DNA of 64,000 nucleotides from Antricoccus suffuscus (GCF_003003235.1 NZ_PVUE01000005.1:62001-126000), one strand, 5' to 3'. Shown: positions 45,501-61,837, counted from the first letter of the stretch. Made by a program: numbers and translations. Notes: generated from the sequence alone by a model not told the origin.

Positions 45501-47349
45501 GCACTTGACCGGTCGCGAGAGGCGTAAATACGTAGCTCCATGAGTCTTTGCCCGTCGCCGGGTGCCACGTCGTCCCCCCATCGGTGGATGCCTCAATCCC
45601 TGCGACTGTGCCCCCGCCTGCATCGACCGACGTGCCAGCGACCGTAATGGCGGTCCCGATCGGGAAAACGGCGCCTTCTGCCGGTGTCACGATCGCGGTC
45701 GTTGGGGGCAGAGTGTCGGCAGACTTCGTCGCGACCGTCAGCCCGGACTGCAAGGTTGACGGCTGCGCCCCCATATCGGCGAGTACGTTGATCGTCGCTT
45801 GCTGCATTACCGGATCGGTCGGCGTTCCGGGGTCGGTGATGTGATAGTCGTCGAGGCCGTAGGACCATTGAACGGTGCCGGTACCGAATACGAGCGCGCC
45901 ACTGGCCGCCCGGTACATGACTAAGTTGTGAACACACGTGCCCGCGATGTACGTCGCGCCGTAGTCGATAAGCAGTTGTGGCGTCTGCGCCGTCGTGCTT
46001 GACAGGTGGATAAGACCGGCGGGCCGAAATCCGTTGTCGACGTCGCAGTCAAACTCGTAGCCCAAAGTGTTGGGCGCCAACGTGCGGACTTGTCCGCTCG
46101 TTAGCGTAGCGACGGCCGTGTTGCGCCAGAGCCGCATCTTTGCGTACTCGGCCGGCACGGTGATCTCGAGGTCGGGCTCATTACTGGGCAGTATCGAACG
46201 GAAGAACTGTCCAGTCAGCTCATTTTCGGGACGTCCTCCGTTGGACGGCGGGCTGAACCTGGGATCGCGCCACGTGCCGGTCCATTCCGGCGTCGGGTCG
46301 GTCTTGGCACTGTCGAGGGTCTCTTTGTAACAGACCATTGTGCGGTCTGCGGTGTTGGAGCCATCAATCGACGGGGCGAAGCGTACTTTCCAGAAGTATT
46401 CGTTGCCTGACATGAAGATCATGTTGACGCCGGCATCGCGCCCGGCCGTTACGTTCGCTCGTTGCTCGCCGGAGACGTACTCATCGTGACCGGAAGAGAT
46501 GAACACCTTGCGTCCATTGAGGACAGCTGCGTTCTGGTGGACATCGATCCCACCGCAATATGAGACGTCGTACCCGTTGCGCTCGAGCCATCGGACAAGC
46601 GCGACCTCTGAGCTCAGGAACATGTTGGCCGGATCGGGATCTCGGAGGAAGGGCCGGTTGTAACTGACCTTGTATGCGCGACCTACCGGGTCGCCGTAGT
46701 ACAAACTGTTGCCGCCGTACCGGTTGTAGGCGTGCTGGGTCATCTCGGACGTTTGGACCAACACGTCTGACGGCCCGGTCCGACGCACTACAAAGTGCGT
46801 GTAGTTGGACGAGTTGGAGATGTCCTGGCGCTCGAACAGCGCATAATAGATTCCCGATACGGCGTCGGATGGAATAGTCCACGACGCGGACGGCGCCCAG
46901 TTGCCGCAATCGACCAGCCCGGTCGCAGCCTCGGTCTTTGGATCTGGCTGGTTCTGCGGAAGCGTGGCAGAGGGGGTGACATCTTGAAGATGTCGCGCGC
47001 CCTTACCGGCGTACCAACCGAGCCGAAAGATGCGGACTCGATAATTAGTCGATGGCGTGTCGATCTTGAAAGTCACGGTCTCGCCGGGCAGGTAGCTGTA
47101 CTGAGTCGTGTAGCCCTGAATTGACTCGTCGTTCCATGATTCCCAGTCCGACTCCGGCGAACCACTCAACGCGTTCTCGGCCGACACCGAGTTAGGCGTG
47201 GCAGCGAAGGCCGTGCCGGACATCATCGCGGCCGCCGTACCGGCCACGCCGGCCGCACTTGAATACTTTAGGAAGTTCCGACGGCTGACACCGCGCCCAA
47301 GAATTCCACCGTTAGAGCCCGCGCCCGATTTATCATCCGATTTACCCAC
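42517..47349 (-). CDS. Tat-exported multidomain protein: DMFase-large-subunit-like, Ig-like and four DUF4082 domains
   Basis: A 1610-residue secreted protein. Tat signal with SRRNFLKY (Arg23-Arg24) and cleavage after AFA at about 49. Residues about 60-535 resemble the N,N-dimethylformamidase beta-subunit-like domain seen in surface proteins (RIFRLGWYAGKGAR; SSGHDEYVSGEQR). An Ig-like domain spans about 545-640. Four DUF4082 domains begin near 647, 916, 1186 and 1450, each with a S-I/L-W-(P/D) start, GVRFYKG, and a YWVD end. Three SbsA-type Ig domains (ATFSEP motif) separate them. The GTG start at 47349 has only a weak ribosome-binding site. It probably decorates or remodels the cell surface; DUF4082 links it to the secreted protein at 60362. 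Confidence 0.88.
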   Translation of the reverse strand: MGKSDDKSGAGSNGGILGRGVSRRNFLKYSSAAGVAGTAAAMMSGTAFAATPNSVSAENALSGSPESDWESWNDESIQGYTTQYSYLPGETVTFKIDTPSTNYRVRIFRLGWYAGKGARHLQDVTPSATLPQNQPDPKTEAATGLVDCGNWAPSASWTIPSDAVSGIYYALFERQDISNSSNYTHFVVRRTGPSDVLVQTSEMTQHAYNRYGGNSLYYGDPVGRAYKVSYNRPFLRDPDPANMFLSSEVALVRWLERNGYDVSYCGGIDVHQNAAVLNGRKVFISSGHDEYVSGEQRANVTAGRDAGVNMIFMSGNEYFWKVRFAPSIDGSNTADRTMVCYKETLDSAKTDPTPEWTGTWRDPRFSPPSNGGRPENELTGQFFRSILPSNEPDLEITVPAEYAKMRLWRNTAVATLTSGQVRTLAPNTLGYEFDCDVDNGFRPAGLIHLSSTTAQTPQLLIDYGATYIAGTCVHNLVMYRAASGALVFGTGTVQWSYGLDDYHITDPGTPTDPVMQQATINVLADMGAQPSTLQSGLTVATKSADTLPPTTAIVTPAEGAVFPIGTAITVAGTSVDAGGGTVAGIEASTDGGTTWHPATGKDSWSYVFTPLATGQVPITVRAIDDSCNIESPGAQRSFVGGPRSLPCSIWPTDFTPTVASSDDGGAIEAGVKFQSAVEGFITGVRFYKGAGNTGTHVGTLWTAAGEQLATGTFANESATGWQVVSISPVPVTAGTTYVASVFMPNGHYAADAGYFAQAFELPPLRALANGESGSNGVYRYGSTGFPTDTFGSTNYWVDVVLSDDNNEAPKVVDHSPATKIQSVVRTTAVTATFSEPMTEASIVVELRDATNALVAGSTTYDVATRTVTFTPTAQLGALALHTVTVTSGNDAAGNPMAAPYSWEFSTTGDPGTSPTSIWDTSAAPATISSNETSAVELGVRFTSDVDGTVTGLRYYKAPGTTGSHVGHLWSASGTLLATAPFSDETSSGWQQANLATPIAITKSTTYFVSYFSPNGVYGLSSGYFTSSAADRGAIHAPQSVTGALNGVYRYGPSGFPSDSYGNANYWADVVFVMAADNTAPQVVNVEPAADILAVATTQAIRVTFSEPIDSGSLTFSLKTASGATVASSVAYDGGTSTATLTPNSALAQNVTYTASVSAKDLSGNAMAAPMTWKFTTATVAGATPATLWDTSSIPASAASSDGLAIEVGVRIVPQSDGQITGIRFYKGSGNTGSHVGHLWAADGALLGTATFSNESAVGWQQALFGAPIQVTAGVPLVASYFAPNGHYAADAGGLSAAVTRAPLQAPASTGSAPNGLYKYGAGGFPNSSYNATNYWVDAIFVDTAAPTVTSVTPVSGETGVALTATMSATFSEPVIPSSISIKLRDSGGGVVAGASAYDSGSNTVTFTPTSPLSGSASFTASVEAATDLQGNPIASPTTWSFQTIGATVVSIWPNNVVPATLLVNDTGPLEVGTKFRASSAGAVQGVRFYKGGPANSGSHVGNLWAADGTLLASVTFGAETARGWQSAMFTTPVSLTPGNTYVVSYFAPKGMYSADGGYFASRNVVSGPLEALQTGTDGGNGVYKYGSASAFPTDTYNGGNYWVDVLFVAG

Positions 47350-48472: not shown

Positions 48473-49822
48473 CTACTGTGGCGCCGACCGCTCTAGAACG
48501 AAGCGGCGCAGTTCGTCAGCGTCATCGAGATCCACGAATTCCTGGCCGCGCTCCTCGTCAATCGACGTTCGAGCACGCAGAGCCTCCAACGTAGTTCCCG
48601 ATTCCGCGGCCAGCCCCGATTCGCGACCGACTAGCTCGTCGTATACGCCGACGTACTTCTCCGCTTGTGGTCGCCAATCAAGCTCCTTTACGACTCGGCC
48701 GCGCGCGCGAAGCGACATCGTGGCCCGCAACTCCGCATCATCTAGCAGCCGGGCTACCGAATCGGCAAACGCCTTCACGTCACCCGGCGTCACGTACAGC
48801 ACCGCTTCCGCACCAGAGACCCGAGTCTCGGCCAGGTCAAATGACACCGATGGCAGGGCATATGCCATGTACTCCATCGTCTTGTTCATCGTGGAAATAT
48901 CGTTGAGTGGCGTCTTCCGGTCAGGACACATGCCGATATCGGCCGCGCTGAGATAGTCAGCGATCATGCCCTTGTCTGCCCGACCGGTGAAGGTTACATA
49001 GTCATCAAGCCCGAGTTGGGTGGACTGACGACGAAGATCCTCGAAGCAGTCACCAAAACCGAGTAATGCCGCGTGAACGTCAGTGCGTCCACGCCAATTT
49101 ACCAATTCGTCCATCACCTCGAGCACCACGTCGACGCCGTCTTGCGGTCCCATGATGCCGAGGTATACCAGAAGGTACCGCCCGTTTCGGCGTATTGATG
49201 GCGGTGGATATATAGGGCGCATCAACTGCGTATCCGGACCGCTTCGTACAACGGTGACCTCATCCGCACGACGATGTCCCCGGGAGATTGCGATCTTCTT
49301 GTAGGACTCATTGGTAGATATCACGCGATGCGCAGCACGAAACGTCATACGCTCCAGCCACAGCAAGCCATTCAACTGAACGCGACCACCGAAGCTGGAG
49401 GGCTTCCCAAAACGTGACAAATAGAGTTCGGGATTGAGATCATGGTGGTCGAATATGAACTTGACCCCACGTATCCGCCACAGTCTGGCTAGGAGCCAGT
49501 AGGTGTCGGGCGGATTGCACGCTTGAATGATGTCAAATCCGCGGTCACGCCATACCCGGAGCGAGAGCAAAGCGGTGCGCAGCCATGAGTAGACGAACTC
49601 GACGATAAAACCTCCGACACCCTTAGCCTCAGGTGCCGGTCGATATTTGTAGATCGCGACACCATCGAGTGTCTGCCGTGAGGGATCGCCCGGACCCTTG
49701 GGACATATCACGCTCACCGCGTAACCCCGTGCGATGAGCGCCTGACACTCAAGCCAGACACGACGATCCAACGGGACCGGAAGATTCTGAACGATTATCA
49801 GAACTCGTCGTCCGATAGACAT
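48473..49822 (-). CDS. Glycosyltransferase family 4
   Basis: A 449-residue GT-B fold transferase. The N-terminal donor/acceptor region starts RVLIIVQNLPVPLDRRVWLECQAL, and the nucleotide-sugar site is seen as YLGIMGPQDGVDVVLEVMDELV and GRADKGMIADYLSAADIGMCPD with the E-x7-E-like NKTMEYMAY. It is converted to membrane-associated work on lipid-linked or surface glycans. GGAGGGG upstream sets ATG 49822. Divergent from the Wzz-like gene; donor sugar unknown. Confidence 0.9.
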   Translation of the reverse strand: MSIGRRVLIIVQNLPVPLDRRVWLECQALIARGYAVSVICPKGPGDPSRQTLDGVAIYKYRPAPEAKGVGGFIVEFVYSWLRTALLSLRVWRDRGFDIIQACNPPDTYWLLARLWRIRGVKFIFDHHDLNPELYLSRFGKPSSFGGRVQLNGLLWLERMTFRAAHRVISTNESYKKIAISRGHRRADEVTVVRSGPDTQLMRPIYPPPSIRRNGRYLLVYLGIMGPQDGVDVVLEVMDELVNWRGRTDVHAALLGFGDCFEDLRRQSTQLGLDDYVTFTGRADKGMIADYLSAADIGMCPDRKTPLNDISTMNKTMEYMAYALPSVSFDLAETRVSGAEAVLYVTPGDVKAFADSVARLLDDAELRATMSLRARGRVVKELDWRPQAEKYVGVYDELVGRESGLAAESGTTLEALRARTSIDEERGQEFVDLDDADELRRFVLERSAPQ

Positions 49823-49976
49823 AGTGGATTCCCCTCCGAAGAGTTGGTTGGGTTCGTGACCGAGTCGGCAACCACATTTAATAGTGCCAGACCAGTTCAC
49901 ACGGCATTTTTAGGGTAGGCCGAGTACTCTCGGGACTGTAGTTGCAAGCTGCTTCGTGGCGTTATGAAGGGACAGT

Positions 49977-50738
49977 ATGTATTTCGGGGATGTCCTGAAG
50001 GCACTCGGACGCAGGTGGTACGTCCTTGTAGCGGGTCTCGTGGTAATCGCCGTCGCGGCAGGTTTGGCAATAAAGTGGGTACCGACGCAGTACGAGGCGT
50101 CAGGGCAGATGCTGCTCTTGCTCCCAGCGGACGCGACCGGTATCACAACACCGACTAACCCGTACATTAACCTGCAGGCCGGACTCATCACCACTGCGTC
50201 CGTGGTCGCGGGAACGCTAAGCACCAAAGATAGCCAGCGCGAAATGAAAGCCAAGGGGTTCACGTCCGAATACGCTGTCGCGCTCGACCCCGGAGGCGGC
50301 CCGCTGCTGCTTATCACCGCCGACGACACGAACCCACAACGCGCAGTTGCCACCCGGGACGAAGTAATCAAGCGGCTCGACGGAGAACTTGCCCGCATCC
50401 AACAAGATGAGAATGTTCCAGTTACCCAGTTGATCCACTCGCGCACATTCAGCGTTACACAGTTTGCCGAGGCGCTACCAGGTAGCAAGATCCGCGCACT
50501 CGCAGTGATCGGTGCGGTAGGCGTGATCCTCACTCTGATCGTCGCGTTGATGATTGACCGGTATCGGCCGGCTCGCAAACGGCCGAGGCGCTCTCGCGCA
50601 CGCCGCAGTCGCGAGACCGGGCCGGACGACGAAACGCAAGCCGATCCACAATCCCCATCGGTCGACAATGACAGCGAACTGGCATCCAGCGCAACGTCGA
50701 CCGTTGAGCATGAGGTCGTCGGTGAGCCTCGCCGCTGA
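49977..50738 (+). CDS. Wzz/chain-length-determinant-like membrane protein
   Basis: A 253-residue polysaccharide co-polymerase-like protein: membrane segments at about 15-32 and 173-193 flanking an external helical domain, and a basic C-terminus followed by an acidic disordered tail. No Walker motifs, so no attached tyrosine kinase. The family sets polymer length in Wzy-dependent or ABC-type systems. AAGGGA precedes ATG 49977. It overlaps the following ligase-like gene by 29 bp. Confidence 0.8.
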   Translation: MYFGDVLKALGRRWYVLVAGLVVIAVAAGLAIKWVPTQYEASGQMLLLLPADATGITTPTNPYINLQAGLITTASVVAGTLSTKDSQREMKAKGFTSEYAVALDPGGGPLLLITADDTNPQRAVATRDEVIKRLDGELARIQQDENVPVTQLIHSRTFSVTQFAEALPGSKIRALAVIGAVGVILTLIVALMIDRYRPARKRPRRSRARRSRETGPDDETQADPQSPSVDNDSELASSATSTVEHEVVGEPRR

Positions 50739-52152
50739 AACACCGGTCCGACGCGAACGAACGCAGCGCATCCCGGCACTAGTCTTCGTTCTCGTCTACG
50801 TCGCGCTACTGCTCTGCATTCCTTCGCGGCTAATCGTCGGACCACTAGGCGCATCGGGGACGCCCGCAAATCTTTGGGGATTGGCGGCGCTGCTCTGGTG
50901 GGTCTGCGCCGCGGTCGGCGGATTCAACACAGGTCGCCACTCGCCAGTACGGATTGCAATAGCCGTTCTGACCCTTGCGGTGTTCGCAAGTTACGTGTCC
51001 GGAATGTCGAACGGCTGGTTCATTCCACCGACTATTCACGAAGCAACTAGCGACGTTATTAACCTGGTCCCGGCCACCATTGGGCAAATCAACGAGAAAA
51101 TGGTGAACGCTGCGGACCGCGGACTGCTCTCGTTCGGTGGGTGGCTCGGAATCGTGCTGGTCACTTCAAGCGGTCTGCGTTCCTGGCGGGACCTCGAAAC
51201 GGTCGCAAAGTGGCTCACCTGGCTGGGGACTTTCGTAGCGGCTCTGGGAATACTTCAGTTCTTCACCGCGATAGACATCGCCTCGTTCTTCAAGATTCCC
51301 GGGCTGGTCGCGAACTCCGATTTCGGCGAGGTCGCAACCCGTTCGGTGCTCAACCGCGTCTCAAGCACGGCGATACATCCCATCGAGTTCGGCGTCGTCA
51401 TGGCCTGCATCTTCGTTTTTGCGTTGCACCGGGCAATTCACAACCCGAGCGCAATTCCACCCTGGATACCCGTTGTTTGCATCGGGATCGCGATCCCGAT
51501 GTCCGTGTCACGATCTGCGATCCTCACGGCCGCGATCGCGTTGATCATCATGCTGATCAGTTGGCCTCCACGGTGGCGATGGCGCGCTCTCTTCATCGCG
51601 CCCTTCGCAGCCATCGCGCTCAGACTCATGATCCCGGGGCTCGTCGGCACCATCACGTCACTGTTCACGAATCTATCCAATGACCCGAGTATCAGCGGTC
51701 GCACCGACGACTACGGCCCCGTCTTCGATCTCTACACAAACCATCCGATACTCGGTCGCGGTCTGTTCACTTTCGCCGCGAATTATTACCGGATCCTCGA
51801 CAACCAATACTTTGGCATGCTGGTTGAAATCGGAGCGGTTGGCCTGTCCGCAGCCGTAGCCCTCTTCCTAATTGGCTACTTCTGCGCCCGCGGCGCGCGA
51901 CGACGCACAACCAATCCTCGGTCTCGACACCTCGCGCTCGCGCTGTCCGGCGCAATCGCCGGTGTTGTGATCAGTTACGTGACGTTCGATGCGTGGGCCT
52001 TTCCAATGGCCGCTGGACTCACTTTTCTCCTGATTGGGATGGCCGGCGCCGCGTGGCAGATTGCTCGCTACGAGTCACAGCAATCGGATCCTGCCGCGGC
52101 GGAGGCCGCGGCTCCTGCATCCGGCTATTCGCCAAGCCAGGAAGTTGCATGA
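50710..52152 (+). CDS. O-antigen ligase/Wzy-like polymerase, membrane protein
   Basis: A 480-residue multi-pass membrane protein with about 11 hydrophobic segments and a large periplasmic-type loop (about 325-375) that includes SISGRTDDYGPVFDLYTNHPILGRGLF, the G-x-G-x5-Y-N-like region of the O-antigen ligase/Wzy family. Whether it ligates or polymerises glycan repeats cannot be told. It starts at ATG 50710 inside the Wzz-like gene (GTG 50722 possible) and overlaps the next gene by four bases. Confidence 0.8.
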   Translation: MRSSVSLAAETPVRRERTQRIPALVFVLVYVALLLCIPSRLIVGPLGASGTPANLWGLAALLWWVCAAVGGFNTGRHSPVRIAIAVLTLAVFASYVSGMSNGWFIPPTIHEATSDVINLVPATIGQINEKMVNAADRGLLSFGGWLGIVLVTSSGLRSWRDLETVAKWLTWLGTFVAALGILQFFTAIDIASFFKIPGLVANSDFGEVATRSVLNRVSSTAIHPIEFGVVMACIFVFALHRAIHNPSAIPPWIPVVCIGIAIPMSVSRSAILTAAIALIIMLISWPPRWRWRALFIAPFAAIALRLMIPGLVGTITSLFTNLSNDPSISGRTDDYGPVFDLYTNHPILGRGLFTFAANYYRILDNQYFGMLVEIGAVGLSAAVALFLIGYFCARGARRRTTNPRSRHLALALSGAIAGVVISYVTFDAWAFPMAAGLTFLLIGMAGAAWQIARYESQQSDPAAAEAAAPASGYSPSQEVA

Positions 52153-53081
52153 AACAGACTGAAGAGATTGTGATCGTTGCCGTGGTCACATTTAACAGCG
52201 AGTCAGTACTTGAAGGCCTGATCTCATCGCTGAGCGCAGGATTCGCCGACGTCCTACACCATCTTGTCGTCGCGGATAATGCCTCGACCGATGGCAGCGT
52301 CGCAACCGTCAGGCGCCTCGCGCCCGAGGCAACGGTTGTCGAGGTCGGTCGAAATGCCGGCTATGCAGCAGGGATCAACGCAGCCGTGGCGGCTGCGCCC
52401 GCGCACACCGCGGTGCTCGCCCTGAATCCCGACGTCCGGCTCGGCGAAGGCAGTATCCCCGTACTGCTGCGCGCCCTTCGCGAACCAGGGACCGGAATCG
52501 CAGTTCCGCGGCTGATCGACGCACACGGACGGCTCATTGAGTCGATCCGACGTCGCCCAACCGTAACCAGAGCACTCGCTGATGCGCTGCTCGGCGCGCG
52601 CCGAGCTGGCCGCTACCCGCTGCTCGGCGAAGTAGCGAGTGATCCGGCCGTTTACGACGTCGAAGGTCCGATCGACTGGGCGGAGGGCTCCACGCAGCTC
52701 ATCAGCGCCGAATGCTGGAAAGCCTGTGGACCATGGGACGAGTCGTACTTCCTATATTCCGAGGAGACCGACTTCGACTTACGTGCCGGCGACGCTGGCT
52801 TCGCCACGAGATTTGTGCCATCCGCGCAAGCCACTCACCTTGAGGGCGGCTCTGGCGCGTCACCGGAATTGTGGTCGCTGCTGATGATGAACCGAGTGCG
52901 ACTGTTCCGTCGCCATCGCGGCACCCTGCCAACCATACCGTTCTGGGCGGCAACGCTTCTCCGAGAATCAAGTCGGGCGCTCCAGGGCAAAGCCACGAGC
53001 CGAGCCGCCGTGCGCGCGCTCGTCAATCCGTCACGCATGCGTGAGACGCCCGGACCCCATTCGATTCGGGCATCGCGTTAG
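52149..53081 (+). CDS. Glycosyltransferase family 2 (rhamnosyltransferase-like)
   Basis: A 310-residue GT2 enzyme. IVAVVTFNSESVLEGLISSL, LVVADNASTDGS and LALNPDVRLG give the Asp motifs of the GT-A fold; EGSTQLISAECWKACGPWDESYFLYSEETDFDLRAGDAG is the acceptor-side ED-x-D region, resembling WbbL-type rhamnosyltransferases. ATG 52149 overlaps the ligase-like gene by four bases, so all three plus-strand genes form one operon. Confidence 0.9.
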   Translation: MKQTEEIVIVAVVTFNSESVLEGLISSLSAGFADVLHHLVVADNASTDGSVATVRRLAPEATVVEVGRNAGYAAGINAAVAAAPAHTAVLALNPDVRLGEGSIPVLLRALREPGTGIAVPRLIDAHGRLIESIRRRPTVTRALADALLGARRAGRYPLLGEVASDPAVYDVEGPIDWAEGSTQLISAECWKACGPWDESYFLYSEETDFDLRAGDAGFATRFVPSAQATHLEGGSGASPELWSLLMMNRVRLFRRHRGTLPTIPFWAATLLRESSRALQGKATSRAAVRALVNPSRMRETPGPHSIRASR

Positions 53082-53105: not shown

Positions 53106-53783
53106 CTACCGCAACCGTTTGACAAGTCCGACGGCAGCGGAGCGGGCACGTTGCCGTGGTGTTGCCGGTCTGAGCGCGCTCGCGCGAAGCGAAGCGGGCG
53201 TGTCATCGCTGCGAACGCTGAACCGCGGTTGCATCCACTGGCCGGCCCGCGCAACCTTCCGGTCGCTGGTGTGTACGGTCTCGTAGCCGAGTCGACGCAG
53301 ATCACCCAATAACCGTCGGTCGTATCTGCCAAGTGGTAATGCCGCCGCTCTAACTGCTTCGCCACTTATCTCGGCTAAACGAGCGCGGGCCTCGACAAGC
53401 TCGCGGTCCCGCGTCGCAGGATCCATCCCTCGCCACGGTCGATGATCCATGCCGTGCGAGCCGATTGACATCCCATGTTTTCTTAGCTCAACGACACCGT
53501 CGGGGTCGAGACTGCCGGCCGTCTCCAGGCGCCCGGCCAATACGAAGAACGTTGCCGTGAGGTCCCGTTGACGCAGTGCCGGGAGCCCGAACTCGATGTC
53601 GGAGGTGTTTCCGTCGTCGAAGCTCAGACGCACGTTTGGCCAGCCGGCGATCTCATCGAGGATCCAGTGGAACTTCTCCTCGGTTATCCAGTACGCCGAC
53701 TCGCCCTCCTCAAGTTCCCGGCCGGGCGTCCCGATTCCGTGGAAACAGATGTTGATGATCTTGGTGTCAGGCACAACTGTCAC
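53106..53783 (-). CDS. Polysaccharide deacetylase (NodB-like) family protein
   Basis: A 225-residue carbohydrate esterase 4 protein. Motif 1 is LSFDDGNTSD with the catalytic-base and metal aspartates; motif 2 is GSHGMDHRPW (H-x3-H). Motif 3 reads ALPLGRYDRRL, where the usual RPPYG arginine is not at the same position. It would deacetylate an N-acetylated sugar in the glycan. No signal peptide is seen, so it may act on a cytoplasmic, lipid-linked intermediate. It overlaps the upstream GT2 gene by 17 bp. Confidence 0.87.
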   Translation of the reverse strand: MTVVPDTKIINICFHGIGTPGRELEEGESAYWITEEKFHWILDEIAGWPNVRLSFDDGNTSDIEFGLPALRQRDLTATFFVLAGRLETAGSLDPDGVVELRKHGMSIGSHGMDHRPWRGMDPATRDRELVEARARLAEISGEAVRAAALPLGRYDRRLLGDLRRLGYETVHTSDRKVARAGQWMQPRFSVRSDDTPASLRASALRPATPRQRARSAAVGLVKRLR

Positions 53784-54675
53784 CCCGGACGATGGGTGTC
53801 GCAGGACGCGTTGAGTTGTCTTGTCCCCAGGGCTCCGCGGCGCCGGCGTTCCGCCGTGCCAGAAATGCCGCCCAGACAGTGATCGCGACGTAGACCACGG
53901 CGGCTGGGGCGAGCCTTGGCTCTGGCACGATCACGTCGCGCAACCAGGAGAACCGGTCAGCGTTGCGTACCGGCACCGTAACCTGGCCTTCCCTTGCCGC
54001 AGCTCGCATTGCCGCGTTGCCGCGTCGTACCCTTACTAAGCGCCGCACTAAGTCGCGCGTGCGCAGTGGCGCGGCTACGACTGTTTCAATTTGATCGACT
54101 TCGGACTTCTCGCCTTGGTCGAACACGGAATCCAGGAATAAGTCATCGGCGACCATGTCCGGGAAGCGCTCGAACCGCGCCCGCCCGGCCCGCGACACCG
54201 CGATTGCGCCGCGGCCGAACAGCCCGTGCCTAAAGACTGGCAGCCTACTGTTTATTGCGAAATATGCACGGACCATTAGCGGACGCGCGCGTAGATCGAG
54301 TGTGCGGCGCGGGACGGCCGCGAGCGTTGGACAACCTGCCGGACGGGTCGCTTTGGGCGGGCAGAGCAGTGCATCTCGGAGCGCACGGGCGCCCGCTGTC
54401 GTGAGGACGATGTCGGCATCGAGGTAAATCCGCGGAAAAGCGTCGATAGCCGCATCTCCGGCATTGAGCGCCGCCGGTTTGCTTGGCTCCGCTAACTCAA
54501 TGACCCGGACCGTATTTCGGGCTGCCGCGATTGTGGCGGTCGCATCGTCGCAACCGTTGGCCACGACCACGATCTCGAACTCATCCGGCAATGAATCGGC
54601 CAGTAAGTTATCCAGACAGCGACCGATGACCGACGCCTCGTTGTGTGCTGCGATCACGACGCCCGTCATCGCCAC
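53767..54675 (-). CDS. Glycosyltransferase family 2 with C-terminal membrane segment
   Basis: A 302-residue GT2 protein: GVVIAAHNEASVIGRCLDNLL, IVVVANGCDDAT, and IYLDADIVLT as the D-x-D motif, then a MVADDLFLDSVF acidic region. One hydrophobic helix is near residue 260-276. The gene overlaps the deacetylase gene, suggesting that a newly added sugar is deacetylated. ATG 54675 has no clear ribosome-binding site. Confidence 0.85.
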   Translation of the reverse strand: MAMTGVVIAAHNEASVIGRCLDNLLADSLPDEFEIVVVANGCDDATATIAAARNTVRVIELAEPSKPAALNAGDAAIDAFPRIYLDADIVLTTAGARALRDALLCPPKATRPAGCPTLAAVPRRTLDLRARPLMVRAYFAINSRLPVFRHGLFGRGAIAVSRAGRARFERFPDMVADDLFLDSVFDQGEKSEVDQIETVVAAPLRTRDLVRRLVRVRRGNAAMRAAAREGQVTVPVRNADRFSWLRDVIVPEPRLAPAAVVYVAITVWAAFLARRNAGAAEPWGQDNSTRPATPIVRGDSCA

Positions 54676-54798: not shown

Positions 54799-55701
54799 AT
54801 GAGTTTGTGTGCGTTTTCGGGGCTAATCAATATGTCCACTAAAGTCTCGGTCGAGTTGAGCGCTATCACGGTCGCCGACTTGGTGCCAATCGGGCACTTC
54901 CTGCACGATAACTTGAACCACCACGTCGCCCCCGAGGCATGGGTGCGCGCCGTCAATCCCGCGTGGATGTCCGACGCCCCTAACCACGGATTCATGCTGC
55001 AGACACGCGACGGCAAAATCGTCGGCGTATATCTCGCGTTCTACTCGGCGCGGCAGATCGCCGGCGCGACCGAACGGTTCTGCAATCTCGCCGCGTGGTG
55101 CGTGCTCGAAGCGCACCGGGGACACGGCCTGCGGCTGGTACGAGCGCTGCTGGCACAGGTCGGTTACCACTTCACCGACCTCTCACCTAGTGGAAATGTG
55201 GTCCCGCTAAACAAACGGCTCAAGTTCCAAGAACTCGACACAACGACCGCGCTGGTTCCCAACCTGCCGCGGGTCGGCTCGTCTCGGACGCGCATTACGA
55301 CCAATCCCACGAAAATCGCTCGCGTGCTGACCGGGAACGACCTCACGATTTACCGCGACCACGCGCACACACCGGCGGCGAACCATCTTGTGGTGCAGCG
55401 TGGAAGCGAATCGTGCTACGTGATCTTCCGACGGGACCGGAGAAAGAACCTCCCGCTGTTTGCCTCGATCCTCTACGTCGGCAACCCGAACCTGTTTCGC
55501 ACTGTTGCGAGGAATGTCTATGGGCACCTACTCGTGCGGCACGGAATACCCGTCACGCTTGCCGAGCTTCGCATCGTCGGAGACCAGCCACTCGGTTCGC
55601 GGCTGTTGCGGTCGGCACGTCCAAAGATGTTTCGCAGTAGCCACCTCCAGCCAGATCAGATCGATTACCTCTACAGCGAACTGACCTGCGTGGCCTGGTA
55701 A
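54799..55701 (+). CDS. GNAT-like acyltransferase, first gene of the exosortase-A-like module
   Basis: A 300-residue protein, or 289 from ATG 54832. Residues about 12-150 resemble the GNAT fold (LVPIGHFLHDNL; IVGVYLAFYS; AAWCVLEAHRGHGLRLVRALL, with the R-G-H-G acyl-CoA loop). The C-terminal half is not recognised. GNAT-like acyltransferases are a standard part of exosortase-A-associated gene sets in Gram-negative bacteria, and this one precedes the other members of that set by 27 bp. A role in acylating a glycan or amino compound is inference. Confidence 0.7.
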   Translation: MSLCAFSGLINMSTKVSVELSAITVADLVPIGHFLHDNLNHHVAPEAWVRAVNPAWMSDAPNHGFMLQTRDGKIVGVYLAFYSARQIAGATERFCNLAAWCVLEAHRGHGLRLVRALLAQVGYHFTDLSPSGNVVPLNKRLKFQELDTTTALVPNLPRVGSSRTRITTNPTKIARVLTGNDLTIYRDHAHTPAANHLVVQRGSESCYVIFRRDRRKNLPLFASILYVGNPNLFRTVARNVYGHLLVRHGIPVTLAELRIVGDQPLGSRLLRSARPKMFRSSHLQPDQIDYLYSELTCVAW

Positions 55702-55728
55702 GCCACAACGAGACACCGGGAATCAACA

Positions 55729-57309
55729 ATGCAGACCAACCTTCATCACCTGATAGAACATCGCGCGACGTCAAACGGCGACGCGCCTGCGCTCACGTTC
55801 AAGGACACGACGTTCACCTATGCGGAACTTTGGGCGCAGACTCAACAAGTGGCGGCCGGTCTCGCCCGGCTTGGCCTGCGATCTGGCGACCGGGTCGGAG
55901 TGTTTCTCGACAAACGCATCGAGACGGTGACCTCGATCTTCGGATCGTCCGCGGCCAGTGCCGTATTCGTGCCGGTCAATCCACTACTCAAGCCCGCGCA
56001 GGTCGTGCACATCCTCAACGACTGCGATGTCCGAGTGCTGGTCACCACGCCCGAGCGTCTCGCGCTGCTCGCTGATGACCTGAAGGAATGCGATGCGCTG
56101 AGCAGCGTCATATTGGTCGCGACGGGCATCACGCCCAAAGATGCACCCGACCTCGGGGATGTCGATGTGCACCAATGGAGTGTCGTGTTCGACAACGACG
56201 GATCGTCGTCGCAACTTCGCTCGGCGATCGATCTCGATATCGCCGCCATCCTTTACACGTCCGGGAGCACAGGCCGGCCCAAGGGCGTCGTTCTGAGCCA
56301 TCGCAATCTGATCGTCGGCGCCGAGAGTGTGAGTCAGTACCTGGGCAACACCGCTGACGACGTCATCCTGGCCGCGCTGCCCTTGAGCTTTGATGCCGGT
56401 TTCAGCCAGTTGACGACGGCATTCAGTGCCGGCGCCCACGTGATACTGATGAACTACCTGCTGCCACGTGATGTCGTGCGACTATGCGAAAAGCATTCGG
56501 TTACCGGACTGACCTGTGTCCCGCCGCTGTGGATTCAGATCGCCGCGCAGGAGTGGCCCCCGGCCGCAACCGAGAATCTGCGCTACTTCGCAAACACCGG
56601 TGGACGTATGCCCCGAACGACCCTCGACAAGTTACGCGACCAGTTTCCTGCGGCGACGCCGTACCTCATGTATGGACTCACCGAAGCATTTAGGTCGACC
56701 TACCTGGACCCCGCGGAGATCGATCGCAGACCTGATTCGATCGGCAAAGCGATCCCGAACGCCGAGGTCATGGTCGTCCGACCGGATGGCTCGCCATGCG
56801 ACTTCGGTGAGGAGGGTGAACTGGTGCACCGCGGCGCGCTGGTCGCGCTGGGCTATTGGAATGATCCGGAGCGTACGGCTGAACGGTTCCGACCCGTGCC
56901 CGGCCGGAACCAAGACTGGCGTTCGCCCGAGGTCGCGGTCTTCTCCGGTGATGCTGTTGTGACGGACAACGATGGCTTTCTGTACTTCGTTGGGCGCAAG
57001 GACGAAATGATTAAGACCTCGGGGTACCGGGTCAGCCCGACCGAGGTCGAGGAGGCGGCTTACAGCACTGGCTTGGTACGTGACGTGGTAGCGCTTGGAG
57101 TCGATGACGCCACACTGGGTCAGAAGATACTTCTCGTGGTCAGTCCGTCCGGTTCCGATCCACTTGACGAAGCCGCGCTGATTGCCGCGATGCGGCATCG
57201 ACTACCACTCTTCATGGTGCCCTCTAGCGTCGTCACCCGCAGCGCGATCCCACGCACTCCTAACGGTAAGTTCGACCGCAAGCTACTACGCGAAGAGGTC
57301 GGTGCATGA
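55729..57309 (+). CDS. AMP-forming acyl-CoA ligase, exosortase-A-associated type
   Basis: A 526-residue adenylate-forming ligase with P-loop YTSGSTGRPKGV, YGLTEAFRST in place of the TE motif, GDAVVTDNDG, GRKDEMIKTSGYRVSPTEVE hinge, and catalytic lysine in RTPNGKFDR. The combination with a PLP decarboxylase (four-base overlap), acyl carrier protein and GNAT-like gene is the arrangement annotated as exosortase-A system-associated in Gram-negative genomes. It could load an amino or hydroxy acid onto the carrier protein encoded downstream rather than onto CoA. Confidence 0.85.
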   Translation: MQTNLHHLIEHRATSNGDAPALTFKDTTFTYAELWAQTQQVAAGLARLGLRSGDRVGVFLDKRIETVTSIFGSSAASAVFVPVNPLLKPAQVVHILNDCDVRVLVTTPERLALLADDLKECDALSSVILVATGITPKDAPDLGDVDVHQWSVVFDNDGSSSQLRSAIDLDIAAILYTSGSTGRPKGVVLSHRNLIVGAESVSQYLGNTADDVILAALPLSFDAGFSQLTTAFSAGAHVILMNYLLPRDVVRLCEKHSVTGLTCVPPLWIQIAAQEWPPAATENLRYFANTGGRMPRTTLDKLRDQFPAATPYLMYGLTEAFRSTYLDPAEIDRRPDSIGKAIPNAEVMVVRPDGSPCDFGEEGELVHRGALVALGYWNDPERTAERFRPVPGRNQDWRSPEVAVFSGDAVVTDNDGFLYFVGRKDEMIKTSGYRVSPTEVEEAAYSTGLVRDVVALGVDDATLGQKILLVVSPSGSDPLDEAALIAAMRHRLPLFMVPSSVVTRSAIPRTPNGKFDRKLLREEVGA

Positions 57310-58532
57310 CGCCCAAACCCGTTATCGCCGCCTTTGGCTCTCAGAACGGTCAACTGACCGTGGGCGGTATCCCAGTCGAGCGACTCGCTGAGCGCGTCGG
57401 CAGCACGCCATTCTTCGCTTACGACCGGGGTCTCCTCACGACGCGAGTAGAGCTTCTGCGCGCGACGCTGCCCGCCGGTATCGAGCTGAGTTACGCGATG
57501 AAGGCGAATCCGATGCCGGCGGTCGTTCAGCACATCTCCGGACTCGTTGATTCGATCGATGTCGCGTCCGCATTGGAGATGCAGACGGCGTTGGATACCC
57601 CGCTCACCGCTTCACACATCAGTTTCGCCGGTCCCGGGAAGACCGATCAGGAACTGAGTCAGGCTGTAGCCGCGGGTGTCACGATCGAATTAGAGTCCGC
57701 GTCGGAGGCTGCCCGGGTGGTGAGCGCTGGCGACCGGCTTGGACTGCGACCGAGGGTCGCCATCCGAGTCAACCCGGACTTCCAGGTCAAAGGGTCCGGG
57801 ATGCGTATGGGTGGTGGCCCGCAGCAGTTTGGGGTGGATGTCGAGCAGGTGCCCGCCTTATTGACGGACTTGGCGTCTGCCGACGTCGAGCTTCTTGGGT
57901 TCCATGTATTCGCCGGGTCGCAGAATCTGCACGCCGACATTTTGGCCGAAGCGCAGCGGAAGACGGTCGAATTGGTCTTAGCGCTCGCGGACAAGTCACT
58001 ATCGCCAATCCGCTATCTAAATCTCGGCGGCGGTTTCGGCATTCCGTACTTCGATAAGGATCAGCCGCTCGATCTCGAAGCGATCGGCGATAATCTATCT
58101 GCGCTGCTCACGGATGAGATCCGCCCGAACCTGCCCGACGCCCGTGTCGTAATGGAGCTCGGGCGATACATTGTTGGCGAGTGTGGTGTCTACATCACTC
58201 GGATCGTCGATCGCAAGGTGTCGCGTGGACGGAACTATGTCGTCGTCGACGGCGGCATGCACCATCAGCTGGCCGCGTCGGGCAACTTTGGCCAGGTGAT
58301 CCGCCGCAATTACCCACTCGCCGTCGCCAACAAGATCGATGTACCGGTTGATGAGTCGGTCACGGTCGTCGGATGCCTCTGCACCCCTCTCGACCTTCTC
58401 GGCGACAACGTCGACCTGCCACGGTCCGAAGTCGGTGACCTCGTCGCGCTGTTTCAGGCCGGCGCATACGGGCTCACGGCAAGTCCGACCGCGTTTCTGG
58501 GCCACCCAGCGCCCGCCGAAATACTCGTTTGA
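57306..58532 (+). CDS. Fold-type III PLP-dependent decarboxylase (LysA/ornithine-decarboxylase-like)
   Basis: A 408-residue enzyme with the PLP lysine Lys66 in SYAMKANPMP, glycine-rich phosphate loop NLGGGFGIPY, GRYIVGECGVY, and the active-site cysteine-containing GCLCTPLDLLGD, as in diaminopimelate decarboxylase. Sequence features such as FYD-to-LFQAGAYG spacing agree with the decarboxylase partner of exosortase-A-associated ligases. It may decarboxylate an amino acid loaded by the ligase. The gene overlaps the ligase gene by four bases. Confidence 0.85.
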   Translation: MTPKPVIAAFGSQNGQLTVGGIPVERLAERVGSTPFFAYDRGLLTTRVELLRATLPAGIELSYAMKANPMPAVVQHISGLVDSIDVASALEMQTALDTPLTASHISFAGPGKTDQELSQAVAAGVTIELESASEAARVVSAGDRLGLRPRVAIRVNPDFQVKGSGMRMGGGPQQFGVDVEQVPALLTDLASADVELLGFHVFAGSQNLHADILAEAQRKTVELVLALADKSLSPIRYLNLGGGFGIPYFDKDQPLDLEAIGDNLSALLTDEIRPNLPDARVVMELGRYIVGECGVYITRIVDRKVSRGRNYVVVDGGMHHQLAASGNFGQVIRRNYPLAVANKIDVPVDESVTVVGCLCTPLDLLGDNVDLPRSEVGDLVALFQAGAYGLTASPTAFLGHPAPAEILV

Positions 58533-58561
58533 ACACAGCAACATCCAAAGGGGAACACACA

Positions 58562-58825
58562 ATGGAAAGCACCAGTACATCCACATTAGACGGCGTCAAG
58601 GCAGTAATCGTCCAAGTTCTCGGCATCGAAGACCGCGCGGACACGCTTGAGGCCTCAACGCCCCTCTTCGGCAGCATGCCCGAACTCGACTCGCTCGCTG
58701 TCGTCGAACTGGCCGCCGCGCTCGAGTCACACTTCGACTTTGAAATCGACGACGCCGACTTCACCGGCGAGGTCTTCGAGACCGTCGGAACTCTCGCGCA
58801 ATTCGTCGACGACAGCCATAAGTAA
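58562..58825 (+). CDS. Acyl carrier protein
   Basis: An 87-residue acidic four-helix carrier protein. The phosphopantetheine attachment site is Ser44 in MPELDSLAVVEL. A GGGG box precedes ATG 58562. It follows the decarboxylase by 29 bp and precedes a secreted beta-helix gene by 10 bp, indicating one operon. The carrier would hold the acyl or aminoacyl group made by the ligase for transfer, plausibly by the GNAT-like enzyme. Confidence 0.93.
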   Translation: MESTSTSTLDGVKAVIVQVLGIEDRADTLEASTPLFGSMPELDSLAVVELAAALESHFDFEIDDADFTGEVFETVGTLAQFVDDSHK

Positions 58826-58835
58826 GTTCAGCTAG

Positions 58836-59756
58836 ATGCGCACCCGCCGCACGTTAGCGGTTGCTTCCACGGCCGCCGCGGTGATCGTTATCGCCGCAGT
58901 CGCCATCGTGGTAATCGCGCGATCAGGTGACACCACGTCGCATTCGACCAGCGCCGAGACCGACAACTCCGGTGTGCACGAGGGCTTTCCTGGACCGTCG
59001 AACACCGGGGTGCCTTCCGGGACAAAACTCGCGGATTACAGCGGACCGTGCACGATCACCAAACCAGATACGGTGATTGACGCAAAGCAGGTTACATGCG
59101 ATGACCTGCTGATTGCGACTTCGGGCGTGAAAGTCACCCGGAGCAAGACCAATCGGATCGATGCCGACGGCGATAATATTTCGATCACCATCGAAGACTC
59201 CGAGATAGATGGCGGCACCTGGAACGGCGCCGCAATCGGGTTCAATAATCTCACTCTGAAACGAGTCAATGTGCACGGCGCGCGCGTTTCAGTCCTGTGC
59301 GGTTCCAACTGCCTTGTGCAAGATTCCTGGTTACACAAACAGTACATGCCGTCTGACGTTCCCTGGCACGTCAATGGTTACGTAAGTAATGGCGGATCTA
59401 ACGTCCTTGTCAAGCACAACACAATCGCATGCGACGTGCAGGACAACAGCGCGGGTGGCGGATGTACCGGACCTGCCGCTTCGTTCGGCGACTTCGCGCC
59501 GTTAAAAGACATTACCTATGACGGGAACCTGCTCGTAGCCACCCCTGGGGGCTACTGCCTTTCCGCTGGATACAACCCAGCCAAATCGTTCGGAAGTAAT
59601 CCGACCAGAATAGTTGTCAGAAACAACATTTTCGCGCGCGGGTCCACCGGAAAATGCGGATCGTACGGTCCCGCTACCTCATTTCTGGCGAACGGCACGG
59701 GAAACGTGTGGTCGAATAACAAATGGGACGATGGGAGTCCGCTACAGGCCCCGTAA
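58836..59756 (+). CDS. Secreted right-handed beta-helix-like protein
   Basis: A 306-residue protein with an uncleaved-type signal anchor (hydrophobic residues about 11-29), a Ser/Thr-rich linker, and a repetitive domain from about 50 that is rich in N-x-T/I-V coils (VLCGSNCLVQDSW, HNTIACDVQDNS, GNLLVATPGG), as in pectate-lyase-like beta-helices. Several cysteines are spaced for disulfides. Most of the domain is paralogous to the C-terminal part of the protein at 60362. It is probably a surface glycan-binding or glycan-modifying protein. It has no clear ribosome-binding site, so translation may be coupled to the ACP gene. Confidence 0.8.
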   Translation: MRTRRTLAVASTAAAVIVIAAVAIVVIARSGDTTSHSTSAETDNSGVHEGFPGPSNTGVPSGTKLADYSGPCTITKPDTVIDAKQVTCDDLLIATSGVKVTRSKTNRIDADGDNISITIEDSEIDGGTWNGAAIGFNNLTLKRVNVHGARVSVLCGSNCLVQDSWLHKQYMPSDVPWHVNGYVSNGGSNVLVKHNTIACDVQDNSAGGGCTGPAASFGDFAPLKDITYDGNLLVATPGGYCLSAGYNPAKSFGSNPTRIVVRNNIFARGSTGKCGSYGPATSFLANGTGNVWSNNKWDDGSPLQAP

Positions 59757-60361: not shown

Positions 60362-61837
60362 ATGCGTGTTAATTCACGTCGTTCCCACACGCCCACCAGG
60401 CGACGAATGGCGCTCGTTCGCCTACTTACCGGCGCGATGGGGTTGGCACTCGTCGGCAGCGCTGCAATGGCCACATCGCACCAAAGTAGCGATGCGTACG
60501 CAGAGTCGCCAACCAATCAAACCATCTGGCAAGGCAACCCGACGCCGAAGAACCCGGCAGACAGCGATACGTCCTCGGTCGAACTAGGAACTGTTTTTGC
60601 GAGCAGCGAGAACGGGACAGTATCCGGAATCCAGTTCTACAAATCTGCCCAGAACACGGGCACTCATACCGGGAAACTCTGGAATTCAGATGGTAAGCAG
60701 ATCGCATCAGTCACCTTCAACGGCGAGACGGCAAGTGGCTGGCAAACAGCGTCGCTGTCCTCGCCAGTCGCCGTAGCGAAGGGTCAGAAGTACACGGTCT
60801 CGTACAACGCGCCGAACGGCCAATACGCCGATGACACCGGCGTCCTCTCACCCGGTAAGACCATTACCTCTGGCAGCCTGACTGCATACAGCGGTGTCTA
60901 CACGTACGGCGCCGGGATGCCGAACCAAACCTGGATGGATTCCAGCTACTACGTTGACGTTGTTTTCAAGGCCGGTGAAGCTGCTACCCCGCCTGCGACT
61001 ACCACTCCCGTGGATCCAGTCGTGACCGACCCGGCACCGGGAACCGATCCGCCGCCACCGGCGACTACCAGTTTCCCCGGCCCTTCGAATACGGGTGTTC
61101 CTGCAGGCGTCGCGCTGACCCCTTACAGCGGACCATGCACGATCACGACGCCAAATACGGTTATTGATGCGAAGGCAATCAGTTGTGATCTAGTGATCGC
61201 CGCTCCTAATGTCCAGATCTCACGCAGCACCACAAAACACATTGACTCGGATAGCGACTCGGCCTCCGTATCGATTACGGACTCCGAAGTCGACGGCGGT
61301 ACCTCAGAGACCCCAGCTGTCGGGTACAGCAACATCACGATGAAGCGCGTAAATGTGCACGGCGCACGCGTCTCGGTATTGTGCGGTTCAAACTGCTCGA
61401 TATCTGATTCATGGTTGCACAGCCAGTACATGGCGCCCGGTTCGGACTGGCATGTCAATGGCTACGTGAGCAACGGCGGGTCGAACGTTCTCGTTCAGCA
61501 CAACACCATCGCTTGTGACGTCCAAGACAATAGCAACGGGGGCGGATGCACGGGTCCGGCTGCTTCGTTCGGAGACTTCGCACCGCTCAGCAACATTACG
61601 TACGACAATAATCTGTTTGTTGCCTCGCCCGGAGGCTATTGTCTTGCCGCTGGTCTCAACCCCAGCAAACCCTACGGCAGCAACCCGACCGGAATCGTAG
61701 TGACCAATAACGTGTTCCAACGCGGAAATAACGGAAAGTGCGGCGCATTTGGAGCCGCGACATCGTTCCCCGCAGGCGGTAGTGGGAACGTTTGGTCCAA
61801 CAACAGTTGGGATGATGGCAAGATCCTCAACCCTTAA
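60362..61837 (+). CDS. Secreted DUF4082 plus beta-helix-like protein
   Basis: A 491-residue exported protein: signal peptide (hydrophobic about 17-37, cleavage near AYA), one DUF4082 domain at about 52-205 (TIWQGNPTPKN, GIQFYKSAQNTGTH, YYVDVVFK), a Pro/Thr-rich linker, and from about 240 to the end a beta-helix domain closely related to that of the preceding protein (VNVHGARVSVLCGSNC, GGGCTGPAASFGDFAPL shared). GGAG upstream of ATG 60362 supports the start. The DUF4082 domain links it to the 1610-residue protein of the same locus. It ends at a strong terminator. Confidence 0.88.
   Translation: MRVNSRRSHTPTRRRMALVRLLTGAMGLALVGSAAMATSHQSSDAYAESPTNQTIWQGNPTPKNPADSDTSSVELGTVFASSENGTVSGIQFYKSAQNTGTHTGKLWNSDGKQIASVTFNGETASGWQTASLSSPVAVAKGQKYTVSYNAPNGQYADDTGVLSPGKTITSGSLTAYSGVYTYGAGMPNQTWMDSSYYVDVVFKAGEAATPPATTTPVDPVVTDPAPGTDPPPPATTSFPGPSNTGVPAGVALTPYSGPCTITTPNTVIDAKAISCDLVIAAPNVQISRSTTKHIDSDSDSASVSITDSEVDGGTSETPAVGYSNITMKRVNVHGARVSVLCGSNCSISDSWLHSQYMAPGSDWHVNGYVSNGGSNVLVQHNTIACDVQDNSNGGGCTGPAASFGDFAPLSNITYDNNLFVASPGGYCLAAGLNPSKPYGSNPTGIVVTNNVFQRGNNGKCGAFGAATSFPAGGSGNVWSNNSWDDGKILNP

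Follow-up and report, generated by a model that had tools for sequence, protein, structure and literature searches.

The Antricoccus suffuscus genome (GCF_003003235.1) contains a module of four genes that is probably involved in decorating a polysaccharide. The module occupies positions 54799-58825 on the plus strand of a 64,000-nt stretch (NZ_PVUE01000005.1:62001-126000), which is referred to here as the window and from whose first nucleotide all coordinates are counted. Four closely spaced open reading frames (ORFs) were confirmed. Three of them encode an adenosine monophosphate (AMP)-forming ligase, a pyridoxal phosphate (PLP)-dependent decarboxylase and an acyl carrier protein (ACP), together called the trio below.

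54799..55701, plus strand: predicted tandem-GNAT acyltransferase (300 aa; the ATG at 54832 is a possible alternative start)
55729..57309, plus strand: AMP-forming ligase, proposed to act as an amino acid:ACP ligase (526 aa; TIGR03098)
57306..58532, plus strand: BtrK-like PLP-dependent decarboxylase, proposed to act on an aminoacyl-ACP (408 aa; TIGR03099)
58529..58825, plus strand: stand-alone ACP (PF00550), 98 aa if read from a TTG; the preferred gene is 58562..58825, from an ATG (~87 aa)

The ligase and decarboxylase genes overlap by 4 bp, and the two are adjacent in nearly all loci that we compared. The ACP has a PP-binding domain (PF00550, E 1e-9) with DSL at the phosphopantetheine site. 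Its ATG at 58562 is a likelier start than the TTG at 58529 because the ribosome-binding-site-like sequence AAAGGGGAA precedes it.

An initial annotation, made from the window alone, recognized the ligase, decarboxylase and ACP as the trio associated with exosortase A (XrtA) and noted neither an exosortase nor a PEP-CTERM-like tail in the window. Both points hold, the second now for the whole genome (4.68 Mb searched, 97.8% complete). The ligase scores 760.9 bits against TIGR03098 (acyl-CoA ligase, exosortase A system-associated; cut-off 592.35), and the second-best score in the genome, among about 100 AMP-ligase matches, is 294 bits. The decarboxylase scores 582.5 bits against TIGR03099 (decarboxylase, exosortase A system-associated; cut-off 478.45). 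By these hidden Markov model scores, both are proper members of the curated families, beyond a generic similarity to non-ribosomal peptide synthetase (NRPS)-type ligases or LysA. No other neighbor of the module in the window reaches an XrtA family cut-off. Across the host genome, there is no match to the exosortase models PF09721 (at E<=1) and TIGR04178 or to the PEP-CTERM tail model TIGR02595. The same tail search finds 6, 38 and 13 tails in three XrtA genomes, and PF09721 detects an exosortase in 24 of 35 pseudomonadotal carriers. We are almost certain that the module is an exosortase-independent version of the ligase-decarboxylase-ACP trio.

The initial annotation also treated the order with a GNAT-like gene in first place as the exosortase-A pattern, and here it has to be revised. 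We compared loci of at least 19 kb, examining roughly 20 kb of each: 55 with a homologue of the first gene (GNAT+ loci), 17 XrtA loci and 13 with neither. The first gene has no homologue in any of the 17 XrtA loci. These carry hydrolase 1 beside the ligase, decarboxylase and ACP (17/17), most with a protein at the second hydrolase position (13) and FemAB (11). The XrtA hydrolases, FemAB and the export protein are missing from all 55 GNAT+ loci. Instead, the GNAT+ loci encode the ACP (55), ligase (53), a polysaccharide deacetylase (41), a GT2 glycosyltransferase designated GT2a (39), DUF4082 proteins (39), a GT4 glycosyltransferase (32) and a Wzy-like protein (31). This bears out the proposal that the genes form a separable unit within a glycan cluster. 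In the third group, several of the annotated loci are polyketide synthase (PKS) clusters with condensation-domain proteins, and none of the 13 loci has the deacetylase. In Herbidospora, Acrocarpospora and Nonomuraea (loci L094, L108, L093 and L133), the trio lies next to an aminotransferase and to condensation-domain proteins that are free-standing; L094 has a PKS as well. Were the product of such a cluster known, it would show which substrate the trio uses.

The exosortase-free version is not peculiar to one actinobacterium and is common in actinobacteria and rhizobia. Within the class of the host, 13 of 297 genomes (the host included) exceed the TIGR03099 cut-off, and a scan of GTDB genomes found at least 539 encoded relatives. 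The loci examined are the best 80 of these, a sample biased toward close relatives. They include the actinobacteria Nakamurella (77% identical), Micromonospora, Actinoplanes, Jiangella, Nocardioides, Cryobacterium, Microbacterium, Cellulomonas, Mycolicibacterium and others, and the alphaproteobacteria Mesorhizobium, Bradyrhizobium, Rhizobium and Mycoplana. Plasmid records add Aureimonas and the Sinorhizobium meliloti megaplasmid pSymB (72% identity). SMb20651, presumably an S. meliloti ACP, was looked up and no link to the module locus was made.

Co-occurrence with exosortase differs between the two versions. A full-length exosortase, with PF09721 over its cut-off, occurs in one of 45 carrier genomes, a Rhodospirillales metagenome-assembled genome. 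In a Rhodospirillales metagenome-assembled genome with an exosortase, a single contig holds a ligase-decarboxylase pair of each of the two types (loci L113 and L179). Three actinobacterial carriers (loci L044-L046; genomes G192, G059 and G276) encode, away from the module, an exosortase/archaeosortase-like protein over the TIGR04178 cut-off. Of 299 Pseudomonadota genomes sampled, 19 exceed the TIGR03099 cut-off. An exosortase is encoded in 18 of these, and the sole exception (G448) holds the exosortase-free version of the locus. In a decarboxylase tree, the exosortase-free sequences form one branch (86 rows, support 99), within which the PKS-type sequences are nested (17 rows, support 99). This is a quick tree supported only by the SH-like approximate likelihood ratio test (SH-aLRT), and BtrK and the diaminopimelate (DAP) decarboxylase outgroup have long branches whose exact placement is unsure. 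Rhizobial sequences are interspersed among the actinobacterial ones, and this suggests that the module moved between phyla.

The decarboxylase most closely resembles BtrK among solved structures (244 bits, as compared with 152 bits for the DAP decarboxylase 2p3e). BtrK is annotated as an L-glutamyl-[BtrI acyl-carrier protein] decarboxylase. The window protein has the CTP motif (CTPLD), as in BtrK, where 2p3e has CET (CETGD). It differs in the RPS segment. We considered a LysA role and rejected it: the protein matches TIGR01048 at 234 bits, below the cut-off of 297.9, and lacks the C-E-(S/T)-G-D substrate motif. A separate canonical lysA (460 bits) lies on another contig, so the window decarboxylase is not the enzyme of lysine biosynthesis. 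With a ligase and an ACP adjacent to it, the decarboxylase appears to group with the BtrK/VinO type, and we propose that it acts on an aminoacyl-ACP.

The best stand-alone solved relative of the ligase is 3wvn, an NRPS-type adenylation enzyme. The ligase retains the adenylation-domain aspartate that anchors the substrate amine (D222), along with R322, S323 and K514. The Arg and Ser of this specificity region are invariant in an alignment of 27 sequences. The ten-position pocket code DAS[C/G]ATMRSK occurs in 59 of 62 GNAT-context ligases and is nearly identical in PKS-context ligases, and most XrtA-locus ligases (12/17) have DYN[G/A]TSMRSK. The conserved Arg could bind a second carboxylate of the substrate.

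The first gene has no Pfam or NCBIfam family above cut-off. At the sequence level, its GNAT assignment is marginal (PF00583, E 0.011), and only three of 43 family members reach PF00583 at E<0.01. The AlphaFold model, built from an alignment of those 43 members, has two GNAT folds with a mean predicted local distance difference test score (pLDDT) of 92.7 and a predicted template modeling score (pTM) of 0.88; residues 1-12 are of low confidence. Foldseek matches it to tandem GNATs and N-myristoyltransferases (GNATs at E 1e-8), structures of both kinds following the model along residues 15-295. The top VIA-align match is an N-myristoyltransferase (Z 15.6, 268 residues, root-mean-square deviation 4.4), extending to the N-myristoyltransferase C-terminus. 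The GNAT-like label of the initial annotation thus stands on the confident model, which predicts a tandem-GNAT acyltransferase, more than on the sequence matches. Nearly all family members end at a common position with a conserved YSEL(T)xxxW. N-myristoyltransferase uses its own C-terminal carboxylate, and this family may do likewise. Homology to the FemAB of XrtA loci was rejected at the sequence level (no profile similarity; hhalign probability 1.5); the two may be distantly related in fold. FemX-type structures are not among the 50 VIA-align matches listed for the model, which excludes nothing.

Distant homologues of the first gene lie beside other adenylate-forming enzymes in Shinella and in Rhizobium T1470. 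On a Paludibaculum fermentans plasmid (locus L198, 4252-10234), a distant GNAT homologue with the YSEL C-terminus occurs with a deacetylase, a GT2 and an O-antigen ligase. There, a HAD-IIIC enzyme takes the place of the trio, and no ACP was identified adjacent to it. HAD-IIIC/FkbH-like enzymes make glyceryl-ACP. This replacement suggests that the GNAT transferase is able to accept different carrier-bound acyl groups.

The genes around the module include several that we predict to be involved in glycan assembly, and two for exported DUF4082 proteins:

42517-47349, minus strand: 1610-aa protein that flanks the glycan cluster, has a twin-arginine translocation (TAT) signal and combines an N,N-dimethylformamidase-like domain with four DUF4082 and three Big_5 domains
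48473..49900, minus strand: GT4 glycosyltransferase (PF13692; homologue in 32/55 GNAT+ loci)
50554..52152, plus strand: Wzy/O-antigen-ligase family protein (PF04932, E 1e-13; homologue in 31/55); the gene probably starts downstream of 50554, and the TIGR03097 match is below cut-off
51993..53081, plus strand: GT2 glycosyltransferase, GT2a (PF00535; homologue in 39/55)
53106..53783, minus strand: polysaccharide deacetylase with no apparent signal peptide (PF01522, E 9e-22; motifs SFDDG and SHGMDH)
53767..54675, minus strand: GT2 glycosyltransferase (PF00535; homologue in 21/55)
60362..61837, plus strand: predicted exported DUF4082 protein (PF13313, E 5e-46; DUF4082 proteins in 39/55)

The predicted exported proteins at 58836-59756 and 60362-61837 share a C-terminal domain (FPGPSNTGVP...TVIDAK...NTIACDVQDNS). 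Only the second has an added N-terminal DUF4082.

Taking together the gene content, the family memberships, the predicted transferase fold, the absence of an exosortase and the co-conservation, we infer a substrate, an order of steps, a donor and an acceptor. The module is probably an exosortase-independent cassette for glycan N-acylation, in which an omega-aminoacyl group is moved from the ACP onto an amino group of a glycan precursor. The ligase would activate an amino dicarboxylic acid (aspartate or glutamate being the likeliest) at its side-chain carboxylate and load it onto the stand-alone ACP. The decarboxylase would then strip the alpha-carboxylate from the ACP-bound amino acid to give an omega-aminoacyl-ACP (beta-alanyl or 4-aminobutyryl). 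The co-conserved, cytoplasmic-looking deacetylase may expose a sugar amine on a cytoplasmic polysaccharide precursor, to which the tandem GNAT would transfer the omega-aminoacyl group; the gene content points to the ACP as donor. The GT2 and GT4 enzymes and the Wzy-like protein would assemble and polymerize the glycan. A carrier-bound amine or amide decorating the local glycan, suggested by the initial annotation, is the best-supported function.

Several observations weigh against this assignment. The pocket code was assigned by motif numbering and not from a structure with bound substrate. N-myristoyltransferase, like most GNATs, takes acyl-CoA. Within the examined stretch, 14 of the 55 GNAT+ loci have no recognizable deacetylase, and a different amine (for example, one made via a DegT aminotransferase) or a hydroxyl may therefore be the acceptor. 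In six loci, the GNAT is more than 3 kb from the decarboxylase. We found a chemically characterized glycan for none of the carriers.

Among the alternatives, the one that survives best, though we consider it unlikely, is that the product of the trio is an omega-amino acid amide or a natural product that diffuses or is secreted and does not become attached to polysaccharide, with the GNAT releasing the group onto a small amine. The trio subclade nested in PKS and condensation-domain clusters is consistent with this, and butirosin and vicenistatin biosynthesis employ such enzymes for natural products. The neighbors in GNAT+ loci are glycosyltransferases, a deacetylase and Wzy, however, and the deacetylase is absent from all 13 loci of the third group, which argues for a glycan.

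It is quite unlikely that the decarboxylase is a stand-alone lysine, ornithine or DAP decarboxylase and that the ligase, ACP and GNAT perform a separate acylation, for example with a fatty or hydroxy acid. The sub-cut-off match to TIGR01048 would fit such a role, as would the additional matches of the ligase to fatty acyl-CoA ligases. Against it are the gene overlap and adjacency of the ligase and decarboxylase, the BtrK set of residues in place of the DAP decarboxylase motif, and the amino-acid-anchoring Asp kept by the ligase.

We regard as improbable a GNAT acceptor that is a protein or peptide amine, as for N-myristoyltransferase, in which case the module would modify a surface protein that is secreted, for example a DUF4082 protein. 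Both the top fold match and the frequency of DUF4082 proteins in GNAT+ loci would agree with a protein acceptor. Fold similarity at ~12% identity does not identify what is acylated, though, and the deacetylase and glycosyltransferases are co-conserved with the GNAT. A decayed or partial XrtA/PEP-CTERM system, its exosortase lost or in an assembly gap, is very improbable: XrtA-type decarboxylases do adjoin the exosortase-free clade in the tree and the host assembly is not closed, but 44 of 45 carrier genomes have no exosortase over the PF09721 cut-off, the host has no PEP-CTERM tails where the control genomes have 6-38, the other XrtA genes are absent from the GNAT+ loci, and the module has a distinct, conserved partner gene in the GNAT.

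Beyond the cassette itself, we tentatively suggest, as a reading that could fail somewhat more readily than hold, that an exosortase-free pathway is widespread in actinobacteria and rhizobia, in which polysaccharide amines are N-acylated with an omega-amino acid from a carrier by way of an N-myristoyltransferase-like tandem GNAT. The donor unit would be exchangeable (the trio here, HAD-IIIC in Paludibaculum), with the GNAT, deacetylase and glycosyltransferases constant, and XrtA systems would pair this donor trio with another transferase. If true, N-acylation with an omega-amino acid would give an extracellular glycan a positive charge that is free. To our knowledge, the role of the trio in XrtA/PEP-CTERM systems has not been worked out so far; family descriptions tie it to the sorting reaction. 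The widespread exosortase-free version, with its transferase, deacetylase and glycosyltransferases, argues for a role of the trio in glycan decoration rather than in protein sorting as such. The NCBI name "exosortase A system-associated" is also misleading for many actinobacterial and rhizobial proteins. S. meliloti is a genetically tractable carrier. Searches of the exosortase and exopolysaccharide literature for the trio did not find this arrangement described, which does not prove its absence from the literature; as far as they show, known enzyme families occur here in an apparently undescribed arrangement.

Several known systems resemble parts of the module. The XrtA/PEP-CTERM trio has a ligase and decarboxylase of the same curated families, an ACP and a glycan context. 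Unlike it, the module is without an exosortase, PEP-CTERM tail, XrtA hydrolases or FemAB, and has the tandem GNAT and another set of glycosyltransferases. The decarboxylase shares 49% identity with an XrtA member from Sphingomonas, as against 65-77% within its own clade, and the pocket codes differ (DAS..AT in the module type, mostly DYN..TS in XrtA).

BtrI/BtrK of butirosin biosynthesis share with the module the decarboxylation of an ACP-bound amino acid (proposed for the module), and BtrK is the best solved relative. The module differs in that it lies in a polysaccharide locus and has a GNAT and a ligase of the AMP-forming kind, and the two decarboxylases lie on separate branches, a long one in the case of BtrK. 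In vicenistatin biosynthesis (VinN/VinL/VinO), the ligase charges a free-standing ACP with 3-methylaspartate, which the PLP enzyme decarboxylates only once the thioester has formed; FlvN of the fluvirucin pathway uses aspartate (PMC11284099). These pathways to beta-amino acid starter units have the same logic of AMP ligase, stand-alone ACP and PLP decarboxylase. Their context is a macrolactam polyketide, and neither a GNAT nor a deacetylase occurs there.

The transferase compares with eukaryotic N-myristoyltransferase in its tandem GNAT fold, matched over the whole length to the C-terminus. N-myristoyltransferase has a coenzyme A (CoA) donor and a protein acceptor, where an ACP donor and a sugar acceptor are proposed for the module. 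In the Nod-factor pathway, NodA transfers an acyl group from ACP onto the terminal sugar deacetylated by NodB (PMC5080398). The group proposed here is aminoacyl and not fatty acyl, and the glycan would be polymerized. In logic only, the module has the genes that correspond to NodC, NodB and NodA: a GT2, a deacetylase and a putative ACP-dependent N-acyltransferase that would act in series.

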